Assembly: GCA_019695235.1 (NCBI GenBank)
Contig: JAIBAI010000021.1
Span: forward strand, 1 to 42,122
From: Bacteroidia bacterium
GTDB lineage: Bacteria > Bacteroidota > Bacteroidia > M30B66
Direction of reading: 5' to 3'
Length of the DNA stretch: 42,122 nucleotides
Positions 23,000-40,036 of this stretch are shown one piece after another. Each line of letters begins with the position of its first letter. Position 1 is the first letter of the stretch. Below the pieces are notes generated by a model that had not been told where the DNA came from, did no database searches, and saw only the letters and a list, made by a program, of their open reading frames with translations. The translations under genes were made by a program, and so were the position numbers.

Positions 23000-23026
23000 G
23001 TCGTTTTTTTGCTTATTTTGTGGGCA

Positions 23027-26000
23027 ATGAAACACCCCTATAAGATTTTCCTTATCATGCTCACTGTGTGCATTTTCGGACTGTTTCCCGGTAATGCCCA
23101 AACAGATGGCTACATACCCGGCCAATTATATGTTCGGCTCCAACAGCCCTCAGGCCCTAACAATACTTATATCCCTTCTGAAAAGGTAATGTCGTTTTTC
23201 GGTCGTTACCGTGAAGCGTACGGCATTACCAAGGTGCTCGGCACGTTTTATTTCGCTGATGACCAGCAGCTTAGAAATACATTTCGGGTGTACTTTGCAC
23301 ATCCGGAAAAGGCCGGCGAACTCATTAAGGCCCTCGAAAGCAACAAAGCCGTAGTGTACGCCGAGAAAATACCACAAGACCGCTTTTTCTTTACCCCCAA
23401 CGACATTGGCAGCAACAGCAATACCGGCAACGGACAATGGTATTTGTATAAACTCAGGGCACTTCAGGCCTGGGACATACAGCGGGGCAAGGCCTCGGTG
23501 AAGGTGGCAGTAGTAGATGATGCCGTGCAAGTTGACCACCCTGATTTAGATGGTGTATGCCTGCCCGGTAGAGATGTTGCCGAAAACAAAGCATCTCCTA
23601 CTCCCCCCGATTCTACCTTTAGCCATGGCACCCATGTTGCCGGAATTATTGCTGCAAAAACCGACAATAGCTTTGGTATCGCATCACTGGCACACGGAGT
23701 TTCAATCATTCCGATAAAAATAACCCTCACCGGCCAGCCGGGTACCCCTACTGCTGGTTACGAAGGCATCTTATGGGCTATTTCACAAGGTGCAGATATC
23801 ATCAATGTTAGCTGGGGAAGTGAAATGGTATCGTATTCAGCACAGTCTGTAATCGCCAGTGCTGTTGCAGCAGGTATCACCGTTGTGGCTGCTGCCGGAA
23901 ACTCAAACAATGCAACTGTGAATTACCCTGCCGGCTATCCGGGCGTTATCAGTGTAGCAGGTACCAACAACGTAGATAAAAAACACGGCTCCTCAAGCTT
24001 TGGCAACTGGATTGATATCTGTGCACCAGGCGAACTCATACGCTCCACCATCCCCTTTAATATTTACGGTTTTAAAAGTGGTACTTCATTTGCTGCCCCT
24101 ATGGTTTGTGCCGTAGCCGCCCTGATGCTATCGAAAGATTCAACCATGACCAGGGCAGAAATTGAAAACTGCCTCAAACAATCAGCAGATAACATTGACG
24201 TATTTAACCCTGACTTCCCTGGACAATTGGGCGCCGGTCGCCTTAATGCTGAAAAAGCTTTGCAGTGTGCCCGCGCAGGTATTTCTACCTGTGACCTGAG
24301 CCTCAGCAGCGTACAAAGCCCCTCAACAGCATCCTGCCAAAATACTTTTCAACCGGGCATCCGCATCCTGAACAATGGGCTTGATACCATCTTTTCATTC
24401 CGGCTGAACTACCAGCTCGACAATGCATTTCCGAAAATTTACATTTTTAACGATACACTTCCCCCGGGAAAGGATACCCTGCTGCATTTACCCCAGATGC
24501 AAGCAGCCATTGGTACACACACACTCAAATTCAACATCCATCCAAACATCAATGCCAACTGCACTGATGCTTTTGCGCAAAACAGCGCCCTGAATCACCC
24601 TTTTACAGTGCTAAGTCCGGTAAGCCGTGTACTCCCTTACAACGAAGATTTTGAAAGCGGTTATTTTACCTCAAATAATTGGCAAATTGAAAATCCTGGC
24701 TCTGAATTCGGATGGGAAATCGTAAAAACTGCCGGATTGCCTTCAAGTACCAAATCGGCACGCCTACCCTATTTCATTGATTCAAAGATTGGTGAAAGAG
24801 ACTACCTCACTACACCTGCCCTGAACTTTAGCGGATACAGCGCGGTAAACCTCAGCTTTAAACATGCCTATATCACCCATGGCGGCCCGGCTCCGTCTGA
24901 TTCTTTCATTATCAGCATCTCCACTGATTGCGGTGAAACATGGTCGCGCCTCAAAACCTTTGTCGAAACAGGTACAAAAACCTTCTCCACCCGAAAAACA
25001 GATGGGTACTCTTTCAACCCGGTCATTGCCACCGACTGGTGCGGAGCAAGCGGATGGGCAGCCTGTTCAAATATCAATCTGACCGCCTATAAAGGCCTTG
25101 TTGGCGTACGCATTCGCTTCGAGGGCTACAATGCTAACGGCAACAATATCTATCTCGACAATATAAGTATCACCGGAACACCCGTAAATATCCGGCCCGA
25201 AGCCAACTTCACCGCCTCCGGAAACGAAGAAATTTGTGAAAACCAAACCGTTCAGTTTAGTAACCTCAGCCTGAACAGACCTACCAGCCTGAAATGGTAC
25301 TTTGAAGGCGGTGTGCCTGATTCATCCGACCTTGAACAGCCACTCATTACTTACCCCACAGCAGGTACCTATGCAGTAAGGCTTATCGCTGAGAATCCGG
25401 CCGGTAAAGACACCCTCCTCCTTGACTCACTCATCCGGGTTAGTCAGGCACCTGCCATTTCCGTTACAGCACAGCCCGACAGTATTTGTAAAGGGCAACA
25501 GAGCCTGCTGATTGCCAGTGGCGGCAATGCCTATTCATGGTCAGAACACAGCAGTCTTTCGGTTACAAACAATGATTCAACCATAGCAACACCCACTGCA
25601 ACAACCAATTACACCGTTTACACCCTCACCCCTGAAGGCTGTAGTGGTAGCGAAACTGTGCAGGTGGCCGTTTATCCTCAACCATCTCAACCTCAAATAA
25701 GCACCCAGGGAGATTCATGCACCTTAGAAAGCAGTTTGGCAACAACCTACGAATGGTACTACAACGGTAGTTTGCTCAGCGGAAAAACCGAACGAACACT
25801 CCAGGTGAACAAACCGGGCAACTACAACGTTCGTATTGCCGACCATAACGGCTGTACCGCATTTTCTGCACCTTTCAAATCTTTATGCAGTACAACAGGT
25901 ATCGAACTTATGCCCCCACTGCTGATTCGTCCCAACCCGACAGCCGATTTTCTCCTGCTTGAAGGCCTTACGCAACCAGCCCGCATCAGCCTGTATAACC

Positions 26001-26149
26001 TGTCCGGTGCCCTGCTCATCGCCCCCCAACAGGTTAATTCTTCCGTACATCAATTGTCGCTGGAGGGCCTGGCTAATGGTATCTATCTGCTGCAAATCAT
26101 TCAGGCTGAACACATTCAGCATGTAAAGGTGCTTAAATTCAACCCTTAA
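23027..26149 (+). CDS. Subtilisin-like serine protease with type IX secretion C-terminal domain
   Basis: A 1040-residue secreted multidomain protease. Signal peptide about 1-25 (ending GNAQT); propeptide-like region to about 135; S8 catalytic domain about 140-415 with Asp164 (VAVVDD), His200 (SHGTHVAG), oxyanion Asn292 (AAAGNSNN) and Ser354 (SGTSFAAP). Then come a beta-rich region (about 420-535), a jelly-roll/MAM-like domain (about 537-718), a PKD domain (about 724-808), Ig-like segments (about 809-950) and a type IX C-terminal domain (about 963-1040, from RPNPTADF through NLSG to the final VKVLKFNP). It should cross the outer membrane by type IX secretion and be surface-bound or released. 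I start at Met7 of the longer frame because it begins the signal peptide. Confidence 0.9.
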   Translation: MKHPYKIFLIMLTVCIFGLFPGNAQTDGYIPGQLYVRLQQPSGPNNTYIPSEKVMSFFGRYREAYGITKVLGTFYFADDQQLRNTFRVYFAHPEKAGELIKALESNKAVVYAEKIPQDRFFFTPNDIGSNSNTGNGQWYLYKLRALQAWDIQRGKASVKVAVVDDAVQVDHPDLDGVCLPGRDVAENKASPTPPDSTFSHGTHVAGIIAAKTDNSFGIASLAHGVSIIPIKITLTGQPGTPTAGYEGILWAISQGADIINVSWGSEMVSYSAQSVIASAVAAGITVVAAAGNSNNATVNYPAGYPGVISVAGTNNVDKKHGSSSFGNWIDICAPGELIRSTIPFNIYGFKSGTSFAAPMVCAVAALMLSKDSTMTRAEIENCLKQSADNIDVFNPDFPGQLGAGRLNAEKALQCARAGISTCDLSLSSVQSPSTASCQNTFQPGIRILNNGLDTIFSFRLNYQLDNAFPKIYIFNDTLPPGKDTLLHLPQMQAAIGTHTLKFNIHPNINANCTDAFAQNSALNHPFTVLSPVSRVLPYNEDFESGYFTSNNWQIENPGSEFGWEIVKTAGLPSSTKSARLPYFIDSKIGERDYLTTPALNFSGYSAVNLSFKHAYITHGGPAPSDSFIISISTDCGETWSRLKTFVETGTKTFSTRKTDGYSFNPVIATDWCGASGWAACSNINLTAYKGLVGVRIRFEGYNANGNNIYLDNISITGTPVNIRPEANFTASGNEEICENQTVQFSNLSLNRPTSLKWYFEGGVPDSSDLEQPLITYPTAGTYAVRLIAENPAGKDTLLLDSLIRVSQAPAISVTAQPDSICKGQQSLLIASGGNAYSWSEHSSLSVTNNDSTIATPTATTNYTVYTLTPEGCSGSETVQVAVYPQPSQPQISTQGDSCTLESSLATTYEWYYNGSLLSGKTERTLQVNKPGNYNVRIADHNGCTAFSAPFKSLCSTTGIELMPPLLIRPNPTADFLLLEGLTQPARISLYNLSGALLIAPQQVNSSVHQLSLEGLANGIYLLQIIQAEHIQHVKVLKFNP

Positions 26150-31347: not shown

Positions 31348-33009
31348 GTGAACCGTTTAGAACCTATTATTCAGAAAAGACCCTGGCTGTTTGCAGGCAG
31401 CCTGAACCTGATTTTGTTCAGTAGCTTGTTTTTGTTTTGCGAAATACGCTACGAAACCAACGATGACTTTTTCATGAACAGCATCGTATCGGGTTATAGC
31501 GGCGGTATGCCTGATGCACATTTACCCTATACCCACTTCTTCATCGGCCTGGCCTTATCAGGGCTTTACAAACTAAGTACCGCCCTTAACTGGTATGCCT
31601 TGTACCTGTTGCTCACCCATTTTGTATCTTGGCTTATCTTGTTTCGCTGTTTTGCAGCTAAAAAAGCACCTTTGTATCCTCTATTGGCACTCAGCGGATT
31701 GTTCATTGCGCTTGAACCGGTATTTTTCACCAACCTTCAATTTACTACCAGTGCCACCCTCGCTGCCCTTGCAGGCATGTGCCTGATACACTTTGCATTC
31801 ACAACAAATCAATTGCGCCGTAAAACCCTCTTTGCCGGAATGGCTTTGGTGCTTTTCGCTGCGATGATTCGCGAATCATCTGCCATCATGGCAATTCTGT
31901 TTTGCATGCTGACTTTTGTCAATTTCCGCAATATGAAAGCGATGTTGCCCCCTCTGCTGGTAGCAGGGCTGCTGCTGGCATTCATCTGGGGGCTGCAATT
32001 TGCCAATCGCCTGTACTTTGAGCAATCGCCGGAATGGTCGGCATATTACCACAATGTAAAAAGTGGCAATCGCTTTAACGACAATCCCGCATTCTACAAC
32101 AAGGTGGTGAATGTAAACATGAACGTAAGGGCTATCAATGGCTGGAGTCAGAACGACCTGAACCTGTTTGGTGCCTTCTTCCGTAACTACGAACCGGTTT
32201 ACAATATTGAGGCCTACGATAAACTCTATAAAAGCTACGCTTCTTTCAGTCCCTTGCCGCTGCGCGATTTCATCTATTCGTTCAGAACCGGATTTGGCCT
32301 GCCATTTGTACTATTTATTCTCTTGTACGCATTTTTCAATGCCCAAAAAGACGAAAAACTGCGTTTACTACTTCAGGGTATATTATTGCTGGTGCTTGCC
32401 TGGTATATCTATGCCGCACTTCAGATGAAAGAACGTGCCCTGCTCTCGATGCTCATGGCCTTTTGTATTGGGGTATTGCTTATTCCGGATGGGCAAAACC
32501 TAAGCGGCAAATTGCGTTTAGTTTCAGGCCTGTTTATTGCCGGAATTTTGCTCAGCGGGATGATGTATCAGCATGGTAAAAGGGCTGCCATCAGCACTAA
32601 AACACAAAAAGAGCGGACAATAAGTGCCGGAATTCTCAAGCAAATGCAGCAACACCCGGCCAAGTGGATGGTATGGGGGCCGGCGCTGCCAACTGAGAGC
32701 CTCAACCCGCTTACAACTTCATTTCATTTCAACGACAAGCGTCCGCAGATATACCCCATTGTGATATTTAACAAATCACCTTTATACCAACAAGCTTCAG
32801 GCAAAACATTTGAGCAATTGCTGGTAGATTCAAACACACGTGTGTTGAGTATGACTGACAACTGGGTTACTTTTACCCCTGAACGCCTCGACACCTTTTA
32901 CCGTGAACACCTGCATTGTACTTTAATCGCCGGAGGTGATTCAACCGACCAGCTTAGTGGCCGTAGAATCTTTTGGTTCAAAGGCTGTATGCCCAATCAG
33001 ACGCCGTAA
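31348..33009 (+). CDS. Polytopic membrane protein, GT-C-like, paralog 1 of 3
   Basis: 553 residues with about eight to ten membrane helices (about 14-31, 65-100, 108-150, 160-215, 315-330, 340-360, 365-382, 390-407), then a soluble C-terminal domain. The acidic motif YETNDD (35-40) directly after the first helix resembles the catalytic Asp site of GT-C glycosyltransferases (ArnT/PMT type), so transfer of a sugar from a polyprenyl carrier at the periplasmic face is a reasonable inference, not a proven role. Other blocks shared with the next genes: NWYALY, QFTTSA, MIRE, FNDNPAFY, GWSQND (265-270), TPERLD (510-515) and FWFKGC (542-547). The GTG start keeps the conserved KRP before helix 1. The 3' end overlaps the convergent aminotransferase gene by 13 nt. 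I do not recognise a named family. Confidence 0.7.
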   Translation: MNRLEPIIQKRPWLFAGSLNLILFSSLFLFCEIRYETNDDFFMNSIVSGYSGGMPDAHLPYTHFFIGLALSGLYKLSTALNWYALYLLLTHFVSWLILFRCFAAKKAPLYPLLALSGLFIALEPVFFTNLQFTTSATLAALAGMCLIHFAFTTNQLRRKTLFAGMALVLFAAMIRESSAIMAILFCMLTFVNFRNMKAMLPPLLVAGLLLAFIWGLQFANRLYFEQSPEWSAYYHNVKSGNRFNDNPAFYNKVVNVNMNVRAINGWSQNDLNLFGAFFRNYEPVYNIEAYDKLYKSYASFSPLPLRDFIYSFRTGFGLPFVLFILLYAFFNAQKDEKLRLLLQGILLLVLAWYIYAALQMKERALLSMLMAFCIGVLLIPDGQNLSGKLRLVSGLFIAGILLSGMMYQHGKRAAISTKTQKERTISAGILKQMQQHPAKWMVWGPALPTESLNPLTTSFHFNDKRPQIYPIVIFNKSPLYQQASGKTFEQLLVDSNTRVLSMTDNWVTFTPERLDTFYREHLHCTLIAGGDSTDQLSGRRIFWFKGCMPNQTP

Positions 33010-34139
33010 AAAGAAAGTACCGCATCAATTACACGTTCTTGCGATGCTGCATCTAACTCATAATAAAGCGGCAGGCGTAACAAACGATCAGTGTAATAAT
33101 CAGCCCGGGGTAAGGCACGCCCATCGTGCTTTTCGGCATAAAACTTACTGCTGTGCAACGACAGATAATGAAAAACTGCCATGATGCCCCTTGACTTTAA
33201 ATGCGCTATCAAACCACTGCGTTCATCTAAGCTATTGCATACCAGATAGAACATGTGTGCATTATTGGTAGCATAATCCGGAATGCGTGGTCTTTGCAGT
33301 TTCCCAGCCTTTTCAAGTGGTTCAAAGCATTCAAAATAGCGCTCCCACAATGCTTTCCGCTTTTGCTGAATTTGCGCTAAATTCTCTAACTGCGCATACA
33401 GAAATGCAGCAATTATCTCAGAAGGCAAAAATGAAGAGCCCATATCAACCCAACCATACTTATCAACTTCACCCCTGAAAAAAGCCGACCTGTTAGTCCC
33501 TTTTTCACGAATTATCTCAGCCCTTGCATCAAATTCAGGCTTGTTCACAGCCAACATCCCCCCTTCGCCGCTGATAACATTTTTGGTTTCGTGAAATGAA
33601 AAAGCGCCAAAAGTACCAATACCGCCAAGCGGACGGCCCTTGTAATATGAATCAATCGCCTGTGCAGCATCTTCTACAATATGCAATGGATATCGCTGGC
33701 TGAGCGCCATAAGACTGTCCATTTCACAAGCCATTCCGGCATAATGCACCGGTATAATTGCTTTGGTTCGGGGCGTAATCAGCGCCTCTACCTGCTGATG
33801 GTCTAAATTAGGTGTATCTTCAGCACTATCGGCAAAAACAATTCTGGCTCCTCTTAGAATAAAAGCATTTACCGTTGAAACAAAGGTGTACGAAGGGGCA
33901 ATTACCTCATCTCCTTCACGGATATCGAGAAGGATAGCTGCCATCTCCAGGGCATCGGTGCAGGAAGTGGTAAGCAAAGCCTTATGAAACCCAAAGCGCT
34001 CTGTAAAGAATTGGTGACACTTACGTGTAAACAGGCCGTCGCCGGAAATCTTGCCCGATTCAACCGCCTGCCGGATATAGTCAACTTCACGCCCTGTCAG
34101 GAAAGGCTTGTTAAAAGGAATAGATTCAGGATTTGCCAT
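32997..34139 (-). CDS. rffA: RffA/WecE-type dTDP-sugar aminotransferase
   Basis: A 380-residue DegT/DnrJ/EryC1-fold PLP enzyme. The combination SGDGLFTRKC (32-41), LTTSCTDALEMAA and SFHETKN (PLP Lys186) is that of dTDP-4-amino-4,6-dideoxygalactose transaminase, which converts dTDP-4-keto-6-deoxyglucose to dTDP-Fuc4N for surface glycans. It sits on the minus strand between two paralogous membrane-protein genes and overlaps the end of the first by 13 nt. A TAAATTTG element ends 4 nt before its ATG (predicted leaderless message). The dTDP-sugar donors (RmlA, RmlB) are not encoded in this window. Confidence 0.9.
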   Translation of the reverse strand: MANPESIPFNKPFLTGREVDYIRQAVESGKISGDGLFTRKCHQFFTERFGFHKALLTTSCTDALEMAAILLDIREGDEVIAPSYTFVSTVNAFILRGARIVFADSAEDTPNLDHQQVEALITPRTKAIIPVHYAGMACEMDSLMALSQRYPLHIVEDAAQAIDSYYKGRPLGGIGTFGAFSFHETKNVISGEGGMLAVNKPEFDARAEIIREKGTNRSAFFRGEVDKYGWVDMGSSFLPSEIIAAFLYAQLENLAQIQQKRKALWERYFECFEPLEKAGKLQRPRIPDYATNNAHMFYLVCNSLDERSGLIAHLKSRGIMAVFHYLSLHSSKFYAEKHDGRALPRADYYTDRLLRLPLYYELDAASQERVIDAVLSFYGV

Positions 34140-34143
34140 GCAA

Positions 34144-34151
34144 CAAATTTA
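34144..34151 (-). promoter_or_regulatory. rffA promoter, -7 element TAAATTTG
   Basis: An exact TAnnTTTG on the minus strand with 4 nt between it and the ATG (34139), predicting a start point at the start codon. It shares a 99-bp gap with the divergent promoter for the next membrane protein. Confidence 0.5.
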
Positions 34152-34178
34152 TGAATTTACCTTCTTTGCCGCTCCTGC

Positions 34179-34208
34179 TTGTTTAAAATGGAAATCTGTA
34201 TAGATTTG
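34179..34208 (+). promoter_or_regulatory. Promoter of GT-C-like paralog 2 (TTG-N19-TAGATTTG)
   Basis: TTG at 34179-34181, 19 nt, then TAGATTTG (34201-34208), a good two-part Bacteroidota promoter. It leaves a 30-nt leader to the GTG start at 34239. It likely drives paralogs 2 and 3 and possibly the MBOAT/SGNH genes. Confidence 0.65.
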
Positions 34209-34238
34209 CCTGAATGACAAAAAATATTTTCGGCACAG

Positions 34239-35963
34239 GTGATACACGATAAGATACATCAGGCGCTCAGTGCCCTGCACAAACGCCCATTCGCTATGGC
34301 CTTTGCCTTGCCACTGGTGCTGATTTTAATACTGTTGGCATGGTACCCCGCCCGTTACGAAACAAACGACGACTTCTTTATGAACCTGATTGCATCTGGC
34401 TTTTACAGCGGCAGTCCGGATGAACACCTTACCTATTCGCACTTTTTACCCGGCCTGGTTGTTTCAAGCCTTTTTAAGTTGTATGCCGGAATCAATTGGT
34501 ACTTCTTCTACCTGCTTTTTTTCCATTGGTTAGGTTGGTCGCTCATACTGTACGCATGGTTTCGCAATACCAGCAACACATTTGTGATACCTGCCTTACT
34601 GGTAGTAATGGTATTGTTTGAAACGTATTTCTACCTGAATTTTCAGTTTACCACCACTTCTGCAATTCTGGCCTGCGGTGGTATGAGCCTGATTCTTACA
34701 GGCGACAACTGGAGCCGCCCTTTGCAACGTTCTAACCTGCTGGGTCTGGCTGCCATTGTTGTGGCTTCTATGATACGTTACGAACCTGCCCTGCTGGTTT
34801 CCTTCCTCAGTGCTCCGCTTATTCTATTAGGTACTCACTGGCGAAAATGGCCGGGTACAATTATCCTGTTGCTGATGCTTCCGGCAGGCATCTTTCTCTC
34901 TGAAAAGCTCAATAAAAGCTATTATTCACTCCAGCCTGAATGGAATACTTTCTTTACCGAACTGAAAACAGGCAATAAGTTCAATGATAATCCTGCCTTT
35001 TACCAAACCATTATCAACGAACGTAAAAACCTTCAACAAATCAATGGCTGGTCTGAAAACGACATGCTCTTGTTCGGGGTCTTTTTCAGGAACTACGCCC
35101 CGGTGTATAATGTTGAAGCCTACCAGCGCCTGTACCAGTCGTATAACCAATTGCGCGCCAAACCTTTCAGAGATTACTTCTATCTGTTCAGGCATGATTT
35201 TGGGAAATTGCCCGTTTTGCTCCTGGCAGTTTTGGCCTTTGCACTTGGCAGCACAAGAACCCGCTGGATAATTCTGGTGCAATTCATTGTACTGGGCCTG
35301 ATAACCTATTATATATATTCTTTCCTGCTAATGAAAGAAAGGGTAATTTACGGCATACTCCTTTGCCTGTCAGTAAACTACCTGTACCTTATTTCAAAAG
35401 CACCTGCAAAGCCCCAGCTCTACAAAATACGCACAAGCTTAATTCAGCAGACAGGCCTGGTTTTACTGGTAATTGTTGCAGGCTTACTGCTGAACACCCA
35501 GGTTACGAAATTGTTTGCACGTCATAAGGCACAGGCAGAACAACTGCAAAAAGACCTTCCTTTGCTGGCCGATAAAAATGCCTGTTACGTAATTTATGGG
35601 GGCTGCATCCCTTTTGAAGGCATTCCACCTATTGAGAACCGTTTTACCTGGCAAAAACGTGAATTTACGATGTTCTCACTTTCGGCATTCCATAAATCAC
35701 CACTCAACAAGCCCAATCTGGCGCGCTTTAACCAAAGCGCTCTTGAAACAGCTTTTGCTGACCCCCGGTATAAGGTAATTACTTTTGCTGATTCAGCGAT
35801 GATTCCGCTGACCCCCGAACGGCTCGACCGTTTTAGCATTGCCCATTTGGGTTGTTCGCTTCATTTAGAAAGCGACAGCTTTATTGCCAACAGCAATAAA
35901 AGATTATTTTGGTTCAAGGGATGTGAACCAATACAAACAGATAGCACTTCAACCGTCAGATAA
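34239..35963 (+). CDS. Polytopic membrane protein, GT-C-like, paralog 2 of 3
   Basis: 574 residues, clearly homologous to the gene at 31348 along the whole length. First helix about 18-37, acidic motif YETNDD (40-45), a membrane block to about 225, a loop with FNDNPAFY and INGWSEND (268-275) followed by FFRNYAPVYNVEAY, further helices (about 324-420), and a soluble tail with YGGCIPFEG, TPERLD (525-530) and FWFKGC (557-562). The GTG start is chosen because it keeps the KRP segment shared with paralog 1; the first in-frame ATG is at 34296, inside the first helix. A glycosyltransferase role is inferred only from the topology and acidic motif. The next gene starts 7 nt after its stop. Confidence 0.7.
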   Translation: MIHDKIHQALSALHKRPFAMAFALPLVLILILLAWYPARYETNDDFFMNLIASGFYSGSPDEHLTYSHFLPGLVVSSLFKLYAGINWYFFYLLFFHWLGWSLILYAWFRNTSNTFVIPALLVVMVLFETYFYLNFQFTTTSAILACGGMSLILTGDNWSRPLQRSNLLGLAAIVVASMIRYEPALLVSFLSAPLILLGTHWRKWPGTIILLLMLPAGIFLSEKLNKSYYSLQPEWNTFFTELKTGNKFNDNPAFYQTIINERKNLQQINGWSENDMLLFGVFFRNYAPVYNVEAYQRLYQSYNQLRAKPFRDYFYLFRHDFGKLPVLLLAVLAFALGSTRTRWIILVQFIVLGLITYYIYSFLLMKERVIYGILLCLSVNYLYLISKAPAKPQLYKIRTSLIQQTGLVLLVIVAGLLLNTQVTKLFARHKAQAEQLQKDLPLLADKNACYVIYGGCIPFEGIPPIENRFTWQKREFTMFSLSAFHKSPLNKPNLARFNQSALETAFADPRYKVITFADSAMIPLTPERLDRFSIAHLGCSLHLESDSFIANSNKRLFWFKGCEPIQTDSTSTVR

Positions 35964-35970
35964 GACACCT

Positions 35971-37614
35971 ATGCTCAAACAACTACAGGCGAAAGTTTGG
36001 TCAAACAAAGAGGCTGCTTTGCTCTCTGCCGGAATATTGCTATTACTGTATATCATCAGTTTTGCATATTGGTATCCTGTTTATGAGTCAAATGACGACA
36101 TGTCATTTCAGCTATTTGCAACAGGGTTTTATACCGGACAGCCGGAACCTTTTCTTCGGTTCACCAATATCCTCTTCGGGTATCTGCTGGTAGGCCTGTA
36201 CGGTATTTCAGAAAAACTGAACTGGTACACCCTCTGCATTCTTACAGCTCAGTTTGTTTCGTTCTGGAGTATTTTGTATTTTTCAATTAAAGGACGAAAA
36301 GGTGTTTTACCCTTTCTGTTTGTTACAACCTTATTTGTCATGCCCGCATGGTATGTTGTGCTTAGTATCAATTTCACTACCACTGCGGCACTTGCATCTC
36401 TTGCCGCATTCATTGTCTTATCTTGTGCAGCAAGTCGCAAAGCGTATGCCTGGGCATTGCTGATTTATAGCATAGGTATTATTATTCGTTGGGAGTCGGT
36501 TGTAATGACACATCTGATTCTTGGCCCCTTGTTTTTAGTTCGGTTCGGGTTCAGGAAATCCTTTCAGCAATTCTGGCCTGTTGCGACGGTGGCAGTGGTA
36601 TTCATTTTCCTGAATATGCTGAGCGTTTCTGACCAATGGCAGGAAGTTGCAAAACTGGGAGAAGGAAAAGCACTTGTTGACTTCCCGGTGAGCAGAGAAC
36701 TGGCTAACCTTAGCGAGGAGCAGCTCAAAAAAGCCGGCTGGTCACGTAATGATGTAGATATGTTCAGGAACTTCTTCTTCGAAGATACCAGTATTATGAC
36801 CACAGAACATATTCAAAAACTCCGGTCGCAATTAACACCACCAGGTCTAAATCCGCTTGGCCAATGGCGGCAGCTCTTGCGCAACACCATTCACTGGTTC
36901 GGTTTATTGCCCCCATTAGCCTATCTGCTGTTGGCGGTTGGTTTTGTACTTTGCCTACGAATGCAGTGGAAAGAGAGCCTCTTGCTCGGCATCCTGTTTG
37001 TTGCTGTAACGGTTCTTTTTGCATGGACCTATCTTCCCCGCATCAGAGGAATGGTAACGATAGAGCTGACAGTATTGGCTTCTATGCTATGGATAATCAG
37101 CCAAACTGCCTACCCTTCAAAGAAACCCTGGCTATTGGTCATGGGTATCATTGCAGGAACCGGGCTTTTTATAAGCGAAACACAAAAGCACCTGCCCAAT
37201 GCAAAGGCACTGCGACAAATGGCCGAGTCACGTTTCAACTATGTTAAAGAAAATCCGGAATATAACTATGTTGTATTCACCACAGCCATGCGTTTTGAAG
37301 GCTTAAACCCGCTCAAACAATACTGGACCACTGCCAACCACGACATGCGATTTATCTGGGCAGCCAATTTAGGTGGTACCCCTTACCAGGCAGCCGCATT
37401 AAAGCGACTTCAAACCCCGGATGTATTTACACTGCTAAGCGACAGCAGCAAAGGTCGTCTGCTCAGCCGTTATGAATTCGAACCCGAAATGCTTCGCAAA
37501 TACTTCGAAGAACGCAAAAACGAATCATACACCTTTAAAGCTATAAAACCCCAGGATGAGTTTTATGTTTGGAAGTTTGAGAAAGAAACTATTGAAATGC
37601 CTACAGAGAATTAG
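35971..37614 (+). CDS. Polytopic membrane protein, GT-C-like, paralog 3 of 3 (divergent)
   Basis: 547 residues from the ATG at 35971. The frame is open further upstream (to 35884), but that part lies inside the previous gene and lacks any family feature. The layout is the same: first helix about 17-36, YESNDD (38-43), NWYTL, INFTTTAAL, IIRWES, then AGWSRND (255-261) and FFFED. The C-terminal domain keeps FEGLNPL but lacks TPERLD, and the end reads VWKFEKE where the others have FWFKGC. It is the most diverged of the three and may use a different acceptor or donor. MBOAT begins 52 nt downstream with no terminator between. Confidence 0.68.
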   Translation: MLKQLQAKVWSNKEAALLSAGILLLLYIISFAYWYPVYESNDDMSFQLFATGFYTGQPEPFLRFTNILFGYLLVGLYGISEKLNWYTLCILTAQFVSFWSILYFSIKGRKGVLPFLFVTTLFVMPAWYVVLSINFTTTAALASLAAFIVLSCAASRKAYAWALLIYSIGIIIRWESVVMTHLILGPLFLVRFGFRKSFQQFWPVATVAVVFIFLNMLSVSDQWQEVAKLGEGKALVDFPVSRELANLSEEQLKKAGWSRNDVDMFRNFFFEDTSIMTTEHIQKLRSQLTPPGLNPLGQWRQLLRNTIHWFGLLPPLAYLLLAVGFVLCLRMQWKESLLLGILFVAVTVLFAWTYLPRIRGMVTIELTVLASMLWIISQTAYPSKKPWLLVMGIIAGTGLFISETQKHLPNAKALRQMAESRFNYVKENPEYNYVVFTTAMRFEGLNPLKQYWTTANHDMRFIWAANLGGTPYQAAALKRLQTPDVFTLLSDSSKGRLLSRYEFEPEMLRKYFEERKNESYTFKAIKPQDEFYVWKFEKETIEMPTEN

Positions 37615-37666: not shown

Positions 37667-39130
37667 ATGCTTTTTAACTCTATAGAATTTGCAATATTCT
37701 TACCGATAGTATTTATGCTCTATTGGTTTGGTACAAACAAAAACCTGAAGCTTCAGAATGCATTGTTGCTGTTTTCAAGTTATTATTTTTATGCATGTTG
37801 GGATTGGCGATTCATGTTCCTGCTCATGTTCTCAACCCTACTTGATTATTACACCGGCTTAAAAATGCAGGATGCCATAAACCATCAAGGTAAACGGTTT
37901 TGGTTCTGGCTGAGTGTTATTGTCAATCTTGGCTTCCTGGCCGTATTTAAATATTATAATTTCTTTGCCGGGTCATTTGCCGAAATGGTAGCGCAGTTCG
38001 GATGGGAAGTGAGCCCCCTGATGATTCATGTAATACTACCGGTGGGCATTTCCTTTTACACCTTTCATGGTTTATCGTATGTTATTGACATATATAACGA
38101 TAAGATAAAGGCCGAAAGGAACTTTGTTGACTATGCGGTTTTTGTAAGTTTTTTTCCCTTACTCGTAGCCGGGCCAATTGAACGTGCAACCCACTTGCTG
38201 CCACAAATTAAAAGAGCCCGGACTTTCGATTACAAAAAGGCAGTTGACGGGATGCGACAGATTCTTTGGGGCTTATTCAAAAAGATTGTAATTGCTGATA
38301 ATTGCGCCGAATTTGCCAACCAGATTTTTAATAATTCTGCCGACCTAAATGGGGCAACGTTGGTTCTCGGGGCACTGTTCTTTACCTTCCAGATTTATGG
38401 CGATTTTTCAGGGTACTCAGATATTGCTCTCGGCACCGCCCGCTTATTTGGAATTGACTTATTGCGCAATTTTGCATTCCCCTATTTTTCAAGAGATATT
38501 GCGGAGTTCTGGCGTCGTTGGCATATATCTCTCTCTTCCTGGTTTAAAGATTACCTGTACATACCACTTGGAGGCAGCAAAGGAGGTAATTGGATGCGTA
38601 TCAGAAACACATTCATCATATTTATCGTCAGTGGATTCTGGCATGGTGCAAACTGGACTTTCATCGCATGGGGTTTTTTAAATGCGCTTTTTATCATGCC
38701 TTCCATCATTATGAAAACCAACCGGAACAACTTGGAAATTGTTGCGCAAGGCAGGCTGCTCCCTTCTTTAACGGAGTTTTTGCAAATAACCGTAACCTTT
38801 TCACTGGCTGTTTTTGCATGGATATTTTTCAGGGCAGAAAGTATGTCACATGCACTTCAATTCATTCAGGATATGTTTGCAGGGCTGTTCAGCAAAGCCG
38901 GGTATATTGAAGCATTCAATTTCATGTACTGGAAGGTGGGTGCTTATCTCCCACTTTTGCTTTTAGCCTTTCTCATCATTGAGTGGCTGGGCAGGGAAGA
39001 GCAGTTTGCGCTTGCCAAAATCGGGCTAAACTGGAAACGCCCCTTGCGCTTTGCACTGTATTATTCAATCATCATTGCCATTTTCTGGTTTGCCGGAAAG
39101 GAACAGCAATTTATTTACTTCCAGTTTTAA
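37667..39130 (+). CDS. MBOAT-family O-acyltransferase (AlgI-like)
   Basis: A 487-residue polytopic inner-membrane protein of the AlgI/DltB/PatA branch, which passes acyl groups (commonly acetyl) across the membrane for O-acylation of exported polymers. Visible signatures are LPVGISFYTFHGLSYVID, FPLLVAGPIERA, FWRRWHISLSSWFKDYLYIP and the invariant histidine His326 in SGFWHGANWTFIAWG. The substrate is presumably the glycan built by the neighbouring gene products. The SGNH-type partner gene starts 3 nt after its stop, the usual pairing for this family. Confidence 0.92.
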   Translation: MLFNSIEFAIFLPIVFMLYWFGTNKNLKLQNALLLFSSYYFYACWDWRFMFLLMFSTLLDYYTGLKMQDAINHQGKRFWFWLSVIVNLGFLAVFKYYNFFAGSFAEMVAQFGWEVSPLMIHVILPVGISFYTFHGLSYVIDIYNDKIKAERNFVDYAVFVSFFPLLVAGPIERATHLLPQIKRARTFDYKKAVDGMRQILWGLFKKIVIADNCAEFANQIFNNSADLNGATLVLGALFFTFQIYGDFSGYSDIALGTARLFGIDLLRNFAFPYFSRDIAEFWRRWHISLSSWFKDYLYIPLGGSKGGNWMRIRNTFIIFIVSGFWHGANWTFIAWGFLNALFIMPSIIMKTNRNNLEIVAQGRLLPSLTEFLQITVTFSLAVFAWIFFRAESMSHALQFIQDMFAGLFSKAGYIEAFNFMYWKVGAYLPLLLLAFLIIEWLGREEQFALAKIGLNWKRPLRFALYYSIIIAIFWFAGKEQQFIYFQF

Positions 39131-39133
39131 GCT

Positions 39134-40036
39134 ATGAGAAAATTTATTCAACAACTGGGCTTCTTTACAGCTGTCTTCATATGTATAATTCTCCTCTTTG
39201 AATTGTTCTGCCACATAAGCATCCCAAAGATTTCGCACCACAATATTCATGCAAAAAGCCAATTGTTAATTCCGCAGATTGATTCTAATGCTGTAGTAAT
39301 CTTGGGCGACAGCCGCCTTGAATGGGGCTTAAAGACACAAGAAATGGCTCAGGGTAAGGAGCATATCCTCAACCTGGCATTTCCGGGTAGCAATGGTTTC
39401 GACATCATTCGTTATATGATAAACAACGAAATCTATCCTAAAAAAATTCTACTTGGGTTCACGCCTAATTATTGGACGTATCATAACCATCAAATGGATA
39501 AGGAAGAATATTCTACCATGAATTTATTCAAAACCACTATCAAATACTGGTTAACCCAACATTCGTTTTTATATGACAAAACCTCTTTAGACCTCTATTT
39601 CAAAGGAGAAAAACCATATTTCATTCACCATGATTATGATGAATACGGCAATGTGCTTGTAAAAGAAAGAGGTGATTTTCACGAAAGAGAAAAACACCAA
39701 TTGGAATTATACGCTGATCTCAACAAAAAATTCAACCGCGACAGCTTGAATACATACTTGAATGAATTGGCGCAGCTACTTGATGAATTAAAAGGCAGAA
39801 CGAGTGTTTATGGGATATATATGCCGGTTTCAGATACCATTTTCTCACTTGAAAAACCCCATTATCAGCCCTCCGAAGTCAATGCAATTTTTGAGAACTT
39901 CCTCGACTTTTCTTCTTCATTCGCAAATAACGACAGTACTATTTTCTACGATGGCAGCCATCTAAGTCCCGGCTTTGCCCGTGAGTTTTCAAAGAATCTC
40001 GCAGCAGCCGCCAAGCAAAAGCAAGGCGGCAGATAG
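39134..40036 (+). CDS. SGNH-fold acyltransferase-type partner of the MBOAT protein
   Basis: A 300-residue protein with an N-terminal membrane anchor (about 8-27) and a periplasmic SGNH-like domain. Block I is ILGDSR (56-61, nucleophile Ser60), a glycine block follows in LAFPGSNG (82-89), and the catalytic dyad is in YDGSHLSP (Asp273, His276). The pairing with an MBOAT gene parallels AlgI-AlgJ/AlgX and DltB-DltD, where the SGNH protein moves the acyl group onto the polymer outside the membrane. It is divergent from named families, so the function is inferred from motifs and position. Codons of this gene look more AT-rich than the upstream housekeeping genes. Confidence 0.7.
   Translation: MRKFIQQLGFFTAVFICIILLFELFCHISIPKISHHNIHAKSQLLIPQIDSNAVVILGDSRLEWGLKTQEMAQGKEHILNLAFPGSNGFDIIRYMINNEIYPKKILLGFTPNYWTYHNHQMDKEEYSTMNLFKTTIKYWLTQHSFLYDKTSLDLYFKGEKPYFIHHDYDEYGNVLVKERGDFHEREKHQLELYADLNKKFNRDSLNTYLNELAQLLDELKGRTSVYGIYMPVSDTIFSLEKPHYQPSEVNAIFENFLDFSSSFANNDSTIFYDGSHLSPGFAREFSKNLAAAAKQKQGGR

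Follow-up and report, generated by a model that had tools for sequence, protein, structure and literature searches.

The genes designated A, B and C (Table 1) lie in a 42,122 nt stretch of DNA from an uncultured Bacteroidia bacterium, hereafter called the window. They code for what are likely to be GT-CA-type membrane glycosyltransferases of an unnamed family, which take their sugars from polyprenyl-phosphate donors and act by the mechanism proposed below. Very probably, these proteins act on surface glycans, to which they add sugars on the outer side of the cytoplasmic membrane. The outer, variable portions of bacterial glycans are made by GT-C enzymes, and new families of them are still being founded enzyme by enzyme, as was GT136 in 2024 (PMC11127046). 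The class of enzyme is an established one, but its present sequence family appears to be new to the libraries searched (Pfam, NCBIfam). Homology, fold class, topology, conservation of the DD pair and of arginine on the periplasmic face, and the association with synthase genes in relatives were all obtained by computation, and from these we infer the activity of A, B and C, the roles of individual residues and the use of a monosaccharide-phosphate donor.

Table 1. Features of the locus, with positions in the window.
Feature	Position	Strand	Description
Gene A	31348..33009	+	GTG start at 31348; 553-aa GT-C family membrane protein; family profile match 8e-114
YETNDD of A	31447..31464	+	Residues 34-39; DD at tip of first juxtamembrane helix, proposed catalytic acid(s)
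WecE-like DegT aminotransferase (dTDP-4-amino-4,6-dideoxygalactose transaminase)	32997..34139	-	Between A and B
Gene B	34239..35963	+	GTG start at 34239; 574-aa GT-C family membrane protein, sister of A
YETNDD of B	34356..34373	+	Residues 40-45; helix 43-53 of the model starts here
R180 codon of B	34776..34778	+	Near-invariant Arg (59/60), periplasmic end of TM5
D250 codon of B (FNDNPAFY block)	34986..34988	+	Near-invariant Asp (58/60), large periplasmic loop after TM7
Gene C	35971..37614	+	ATG start at 35971; 547-aa divergent GT-C family membrane protein
YESNDD of C	36082..36099	+	Residues 38-43; helix 41-51 of the model starts here; D42/D43 near-invariant
MBOAT O-acyltransferase	37667..39130	+	Downstream of C; PF03062 E 5e-27; DltB structures E 4e-25
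SGNH-like partner of MBOAT gene	39134..40036	+	Translation contains ILGDSR and DGSHLS

BLASTP comparisons at a fixed database size gave 34% identity between A and B (567 columns, E 1e-98), 25% between A and C (505 columns, E 9e-15) and 23% between B and C (493 columns, E 1.5e-16). By this measure the three proteins are full-length homologues with similarity far above chance, which bears out the first-pass annotation, where homology along their length and a set of named sequence blocks had been claimed; all of these blocks were found. Common to the three are YETNDD or YESNDD, NWY, QFTTS/QFTTT/NFTTT, MIR/IIR and GWSxND, while FNDNPAFY, TPERLD and FWFKGC are present in A and B and absent from C. 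The same annotation had described the genes as tandem paralogs, and this holds for B and C, which are 7 bases apart, but A and B are split by a minus-strand DegT aminotransferase gene that shares 13 bases with the 3' end of A. The frame of C in the ORF list reaches upstream to a TTG at 35884. B, C, the MBOAT gene and the SGNH-like gene form a plus-strand series, in which the two gaps downstream of C are 52 and 3 bases.

The surroundings of A, B and C include nucleotide-sugar and acylation genes. The product of the WecE-like gene scores 571 bits against NF008687 (cut-off 375) and 532 bits against TIGR02379 (cut-off 435). A Pfam search with the protein downstream of the MBOAT enzyme gave no match, and its two motifs suggest an SGNH-like identity; together, the two genes probably code for an extracytoplasmic O-acylation pair. 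The WecE-like, MBOAT and SGNH-like genes presumably serve the same glycan as A, B and C. At the contig end (40048-42068) are genes for a PseC-like aminotransferase and an NAD-dependent epimerase, the amino-sugar synthesis part of a locus truncated by assembly. Promoter and terminator scans gave no clear excess over shuffled sequences, and an Rfam scan found no family near A, B and C, the only hit being a tRNA elsewhere. Further upstream (23009-26149) is a gene for a subtilase that has PKD and a Por secretion tail and is probably a protease secreted by the type IX system.

Dozens of homologues were retrieved from whole genomes of relatives, and 60 of them, all from Bacteroidota, were aligned. 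The family thus has at least 60 members in this phylum, with no named family above the Pfam cut-off. It is patchily distributed, being present in 6 of 395 genomes sampled phylum-wide and in 58 of 291 genomes of one order, usually with one copy per genome. A search of the 2.83-Mb genome with the 60-member profile returned A, B and C as its sole members, and a cluster of three in 6.3 kb is unusual. A scan of genome contigs gave only two loci, apparently identical to loci already found. An origin from phages or plasmids was rejected, as tblastn searches of B against phages and of a second member (L073) against plasmids were without a match. In two genomes, members of another branch (L071, L072) directly adjoin a 1674-aa ORF.

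Six alignment columns are at least 90% conserved across the 60 members, corresponding in B to D44, D45, G54, W87, R180 and D250. D44 is kept in 59 members and D45 in 58, and a further arginine, R368, is kept in 50. The pattern [ST]NDD, R180 and D250 is a candidate catalytic signature of the family. The earlier emphasis on GWSxND and WFKGC as family motifs did not survive the wider alignment, where both are markers of subclades: a loose form of GWSxND occurs in 9 of the 60 members, and the C-terminal FWFKGC block is likewise not family-wide. FWFKGC would instead supply one cysteine of a pair, C539 and C562, which co-occur in A, B and their sister L002, a sequence from the same taxonomic family, and neither of which is found in C. 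In the model of B the two cysteines belong to neighbouring strands of a hairpin (539-549, 554-564), C539 opening the first and C562 being close to the end of the second, and given this placement a disulfide between them is likely.

In the phylogenetic tree A and B are sisters (support 100/99) and are joined by L002 (100/99), while C, with a long branch of 2.25 changes per column, belongs to a broader clade of eight (97/81). The tree gives a clear case for one duplication within the lineage, that of A and B. Given its clade and long branch, C is, on this tree, an older branch or a separate arrival, and need not stem from the same expansion. The proposal that the family expanded here so that each copy could serve its own donor or acceptor in a single glycan pathway is supported only in part, with A and B as sister duplicates. 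The long branch of C, together with its lack of FNDNPAFY, TPERLD and the cysteine pair, also raises the question of whether one or more of the copies, C above all, is degenerate or structural and has kept a GT-C fold without catalysis; a broken relative with several stops does occur elsewhere (G501:C7). C nevertheless has an intact 547-aa frame and retains all six near-invariant residues plus R368, and loss of catalysis is considered very unlikely.

Profile searches of A, B and C against Pfam and NCBIfam returned nothing above cut-off, in keeping with the earlier description of the family as unnamed, and no clear match to a characterised non-glycosyltransferase family appeared in the library searches. 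When all 60 members were compared with the Pfam GT-C families, none matched at E 0.01 or better and there were weak rows only. A single member reached the NCBIfam model of WsfD (E 9.6e-6), and it was not among the 20 members that were scanned individually. WsfD is a hexose transferase of S-layer glycan synthesis that is thought to use lipid-linked glucose made by WsfH (PMC2943079). DUF6057 (PF19529) was considered as a parent family and rejected: A scores 19.7 bits against a cut-off of 29.8, two of the 60 members give a weak match, and true DUF6057 members lack NDD and, by eye, have a different make-up.

Against sequences of the PDB, the family profile matched PglB (E 8.8e-8) and no other entry below E 0.5, the match being confined to the last TM helices and periplasmic domain of the C-terminal half and due partly to hydrophobic bias. 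The N-terminal half of PglB is unmatched by sequence and its structural rank is lower. PglB is a GT66 enzyme that uses lipid-diphosphate-linked oligosaccharides, so this match, along with OST structures at Z 7-10 in the fold ranking described below, would suit a reading in which the three proteins act as oligosaccharyltransferases or ligases and move complete glycans to protein or lipid acceptors. For O-glycosylation in Bacteroidota, both the OTase and the ligase have been described as undiscovered (PMC12871550). The family is too patchy, at 6 of 395 genomes, to be the phylum-wide OTase of that system, and this candidate was rejected. Enzymes that use lipid-phosphate-linked monosaccharides (ArnT, PMT, DPY19, ALG9/12) rank equal or higher, and the genomic association of the family is with lipid-phosphate-sugar synthases of the GtrB/ArnC type. 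We regard an oligosaccharyltransferase or ligase role as unlikely.

AlphaFold models of B and C, built on the 60-member alignment, had pLDDT values of 89.9 and 89.8 and pTM values of 0.92 and 0.90, respectively. Foldseek was not significant on its own, giving no match below E 0.001 (best 0.021, ALG9). The VIA structural ranking of PDB entries began, for both models, with members of the GT-C superfamily alone, which fill the first 44 rows for B (Z from 11.9 down to 6.2) and the first 43 for C (Z from 11.6 down to 5.6). These are DPY19, PMT, ArnT, ALG9, ALG12, AftA/B/D, Emb and OST/PglB, and below them the ranking falls, at about 5, to unrelated folds such as receptors, transporters and other membrane proteins. 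Since VIA Z values below about 13 can arise among helical proteins, the argument for GT-C lies in the consistency of this ranking, in which similarity to solved GT-CA enzymes exceeds that to unrelated membrane proteins. The alignments to ArnT, ALG12, DPY19 and AftA span the whole chain, including the periplasmic domain. The label GT-C-like, given originally from the letters alone, is thus well supported by the predicted structures of B and C, which match GT-C structures (ArnT, PMT and OST included) over their full length. In B, the helices at the N-terminus are TM1 (17-35), JM1 (43-53), JM2 (69-81) and TM2 (87-110), and those of C are alike; both models show the arrangement that defines GT-CA, a core of TM1-7 in which two juxtamembrane helices follow TM1 and precede TM2 (PMC12041299).

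Topology was deduced by reading the model helices together with hydropathy, and indicates 11 TM helices with the N-terminus inside. The fraction of K+R is 0.234 in cytoplasmic loops compared with 0.089 in the periplasmic loops EL1 + EL4, and when mapped onto the alignment this positive-inside bias is in the same direction in 60/60 members, which places the DD pair in the periplasm, at the start of helix 43-53 of B. A cytoplasmic location for NDD, which would have spoken against the original proposal, is therefore contrary to the deduced topology. R180, D250 and R368 also fall on the periplasmic side. In GT-CA enzymes, the JM1 tip carries a conserved catalytic Asp, which in AftB forms part of a DD motif (PMC12041299). 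By helix positions in the models, the conserved Asp of the present family is also at the JM1 tip and extracytoplasmic, which would put the near-invariant DD pair at the GT-CA catalytic position.

Wzy-type repeat-unit polymerases and O-antigen ligases (GT-CB or polymerase clans) share several general traits with this family: they are multi-spanning, often have glycan genes as neighbours, occur in one or few copies and are highly divergent. The GT-CA layout, with its JM helices, DD after TM1 and C-terminal periplasmic domain, argues against such an identity for A, B and C, as does a VIA ranking led by GT-CA structures. In polymerase clans GT-C1/C2, unlike A, B and C, it is a long loop close to the C-terminus that holds the conserved residues (PMC10920833). 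O-ligase or SEDS structures were absent among the VIA rows listed, an absence that we do not take as evidence. A polymerase or O-antigen ligase function is the least probable of the alternatives we considered, and a highly improbable one.

The donor of the proposed glycosyltransferases is pointed to by the gene neighbourhoods of their relatives. Among 43 members from 36 genomes, nine have a gene for a GtrB/ArnC-type polyprenyl-phosphate glycosyltransferase within 5 kb, one of these members being a broken copy (G501:C7), while 34 have no GtrB-like gene within this distance. From genome-wide density 0.40 cases were expected (Poisson tail 5e-10), an expectation that ignores contig ends, which would lower it, and a p-value that shared ancestry among loci would weaken. 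The association suggests donors of the lipid-phosphate-sugar type. At the best locus to start from (L069), the family gene shares about 17 bases at its start with the gene of a GtrB homologue (E 4e-57 to structure 5ekp); elsewhere, the family gene is flanked by a DPMS-like GT2 and BacA (L054), or lies beside genes for a DegT aminotransferase and a putative glycosyltransferase (L058). Such neighbourhoods vary widely, and so imply no single pathway. The window holds no polyprenyl-phosphate-sugar synthase gene next to A, B and C; the genome encodes DPMS-like and ArnC-like synthases, as well as five PMT_2-type proteins above cut-off. With a candidate catalytic signature and an adjoining donor synthase gene in some genomes, the family is directly testable. 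The broken copy mentioned above (G501:C7:239726-241364) has several in-frame stops and lies beside a GtrB-like gene.

According to the mechanism we favor for these GT-CA-type enzymes, a cytoplasmic enzyme of GtrB/ArnC/DPMS type would load one sugar onto undecaprenyl (polyprenyl) phosphate, and the loaded carrier would be flipped across the membrane. The predicted architecture would present to it 11 TM helices, with a pair of JM helices that separates TM1 from TM2, a large loop in the periplasm following TM7 and, at the C-terminus, an alpha/beta domain that is also periplasmic. Conserved arginines (R180, R368) would hold the lipid phosphate, direct contact by R180 being possible, and one Asp of the DD pair at the JM1 tip would activate the acceptor hydroxyl or, in a retaining variant, serve as the nucleophile. 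The sugar would then be joined to a periplasmic glycan or glycolipid.

One of the closest known systems is ArnT (GT83, the Und-P-Ara4N:lipid A transferase), which has the GT-CA fold over the whole chain (about 420 residues aligned; Z 9.7 for B and 11.5 for C), a periplasmic catalytic Asp after TM1 and an Und-P-sugar donor from an ArnC-type synthase, the last being proposed for A, B and C. Identity with ArnT is 8–10%, however, the Pfam GT-C models miss A, B and C, and these conserve NDD, R180 and D250 instead. AftB, like other mycobacterial arabinosyltransferases, has 11 TM helices plus a periplasmic domain and DD at JM1 (D62 in AftB; PMC12041299), with Z 10.6 (B) and 9.3 (C), but no sequence-family link was found, and AftB serves actinobacterial arabinan synthesis and is reported to be retaining. 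The lipid-phosphate-mannose-dependent PMT, DPY19 and ALG9-ALG12 are the top structural matches (Z 10.2–11.9; DPY19 11.9, PMT 11.4–11.6), but are eukaryotic, act on protein or lipid-linked oligosaccharide and share 5–11% identity. GT136 (ORF12 of Citrobacter youngae), by description, and WsfD of Paenibacillus alvei, linked by its one weak match in 60 members, are GT-C(-like) side-chain enzymes with a dedicated polyprenyl-phosphate-sugar synthase. Tentatively, the NDD family might found a GT-CA family, and a CAZy family, of its own, with a role in side-chain glycosylation outside the cytoplasm of Bacteroidota, and the three diverged members here might, together with the MBOAT/SGNH pair, add different sugars to a single surface polymer.

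In four genomes of a single genus (g80; L074, L082, L083 and L084), the family gene is flanked directly by ORFs of about 480–510 and 390 aa. A Pfam search with one of these (L074:8200-9675) gave no match. In the pairs that were read (L007, L008), both flanking ORFs code for multi-spanning membrane proteins that carry motifs of the DFTDEGLY and SDFPAH types after helix 1 and may represent additional GT-C-like enzymes.
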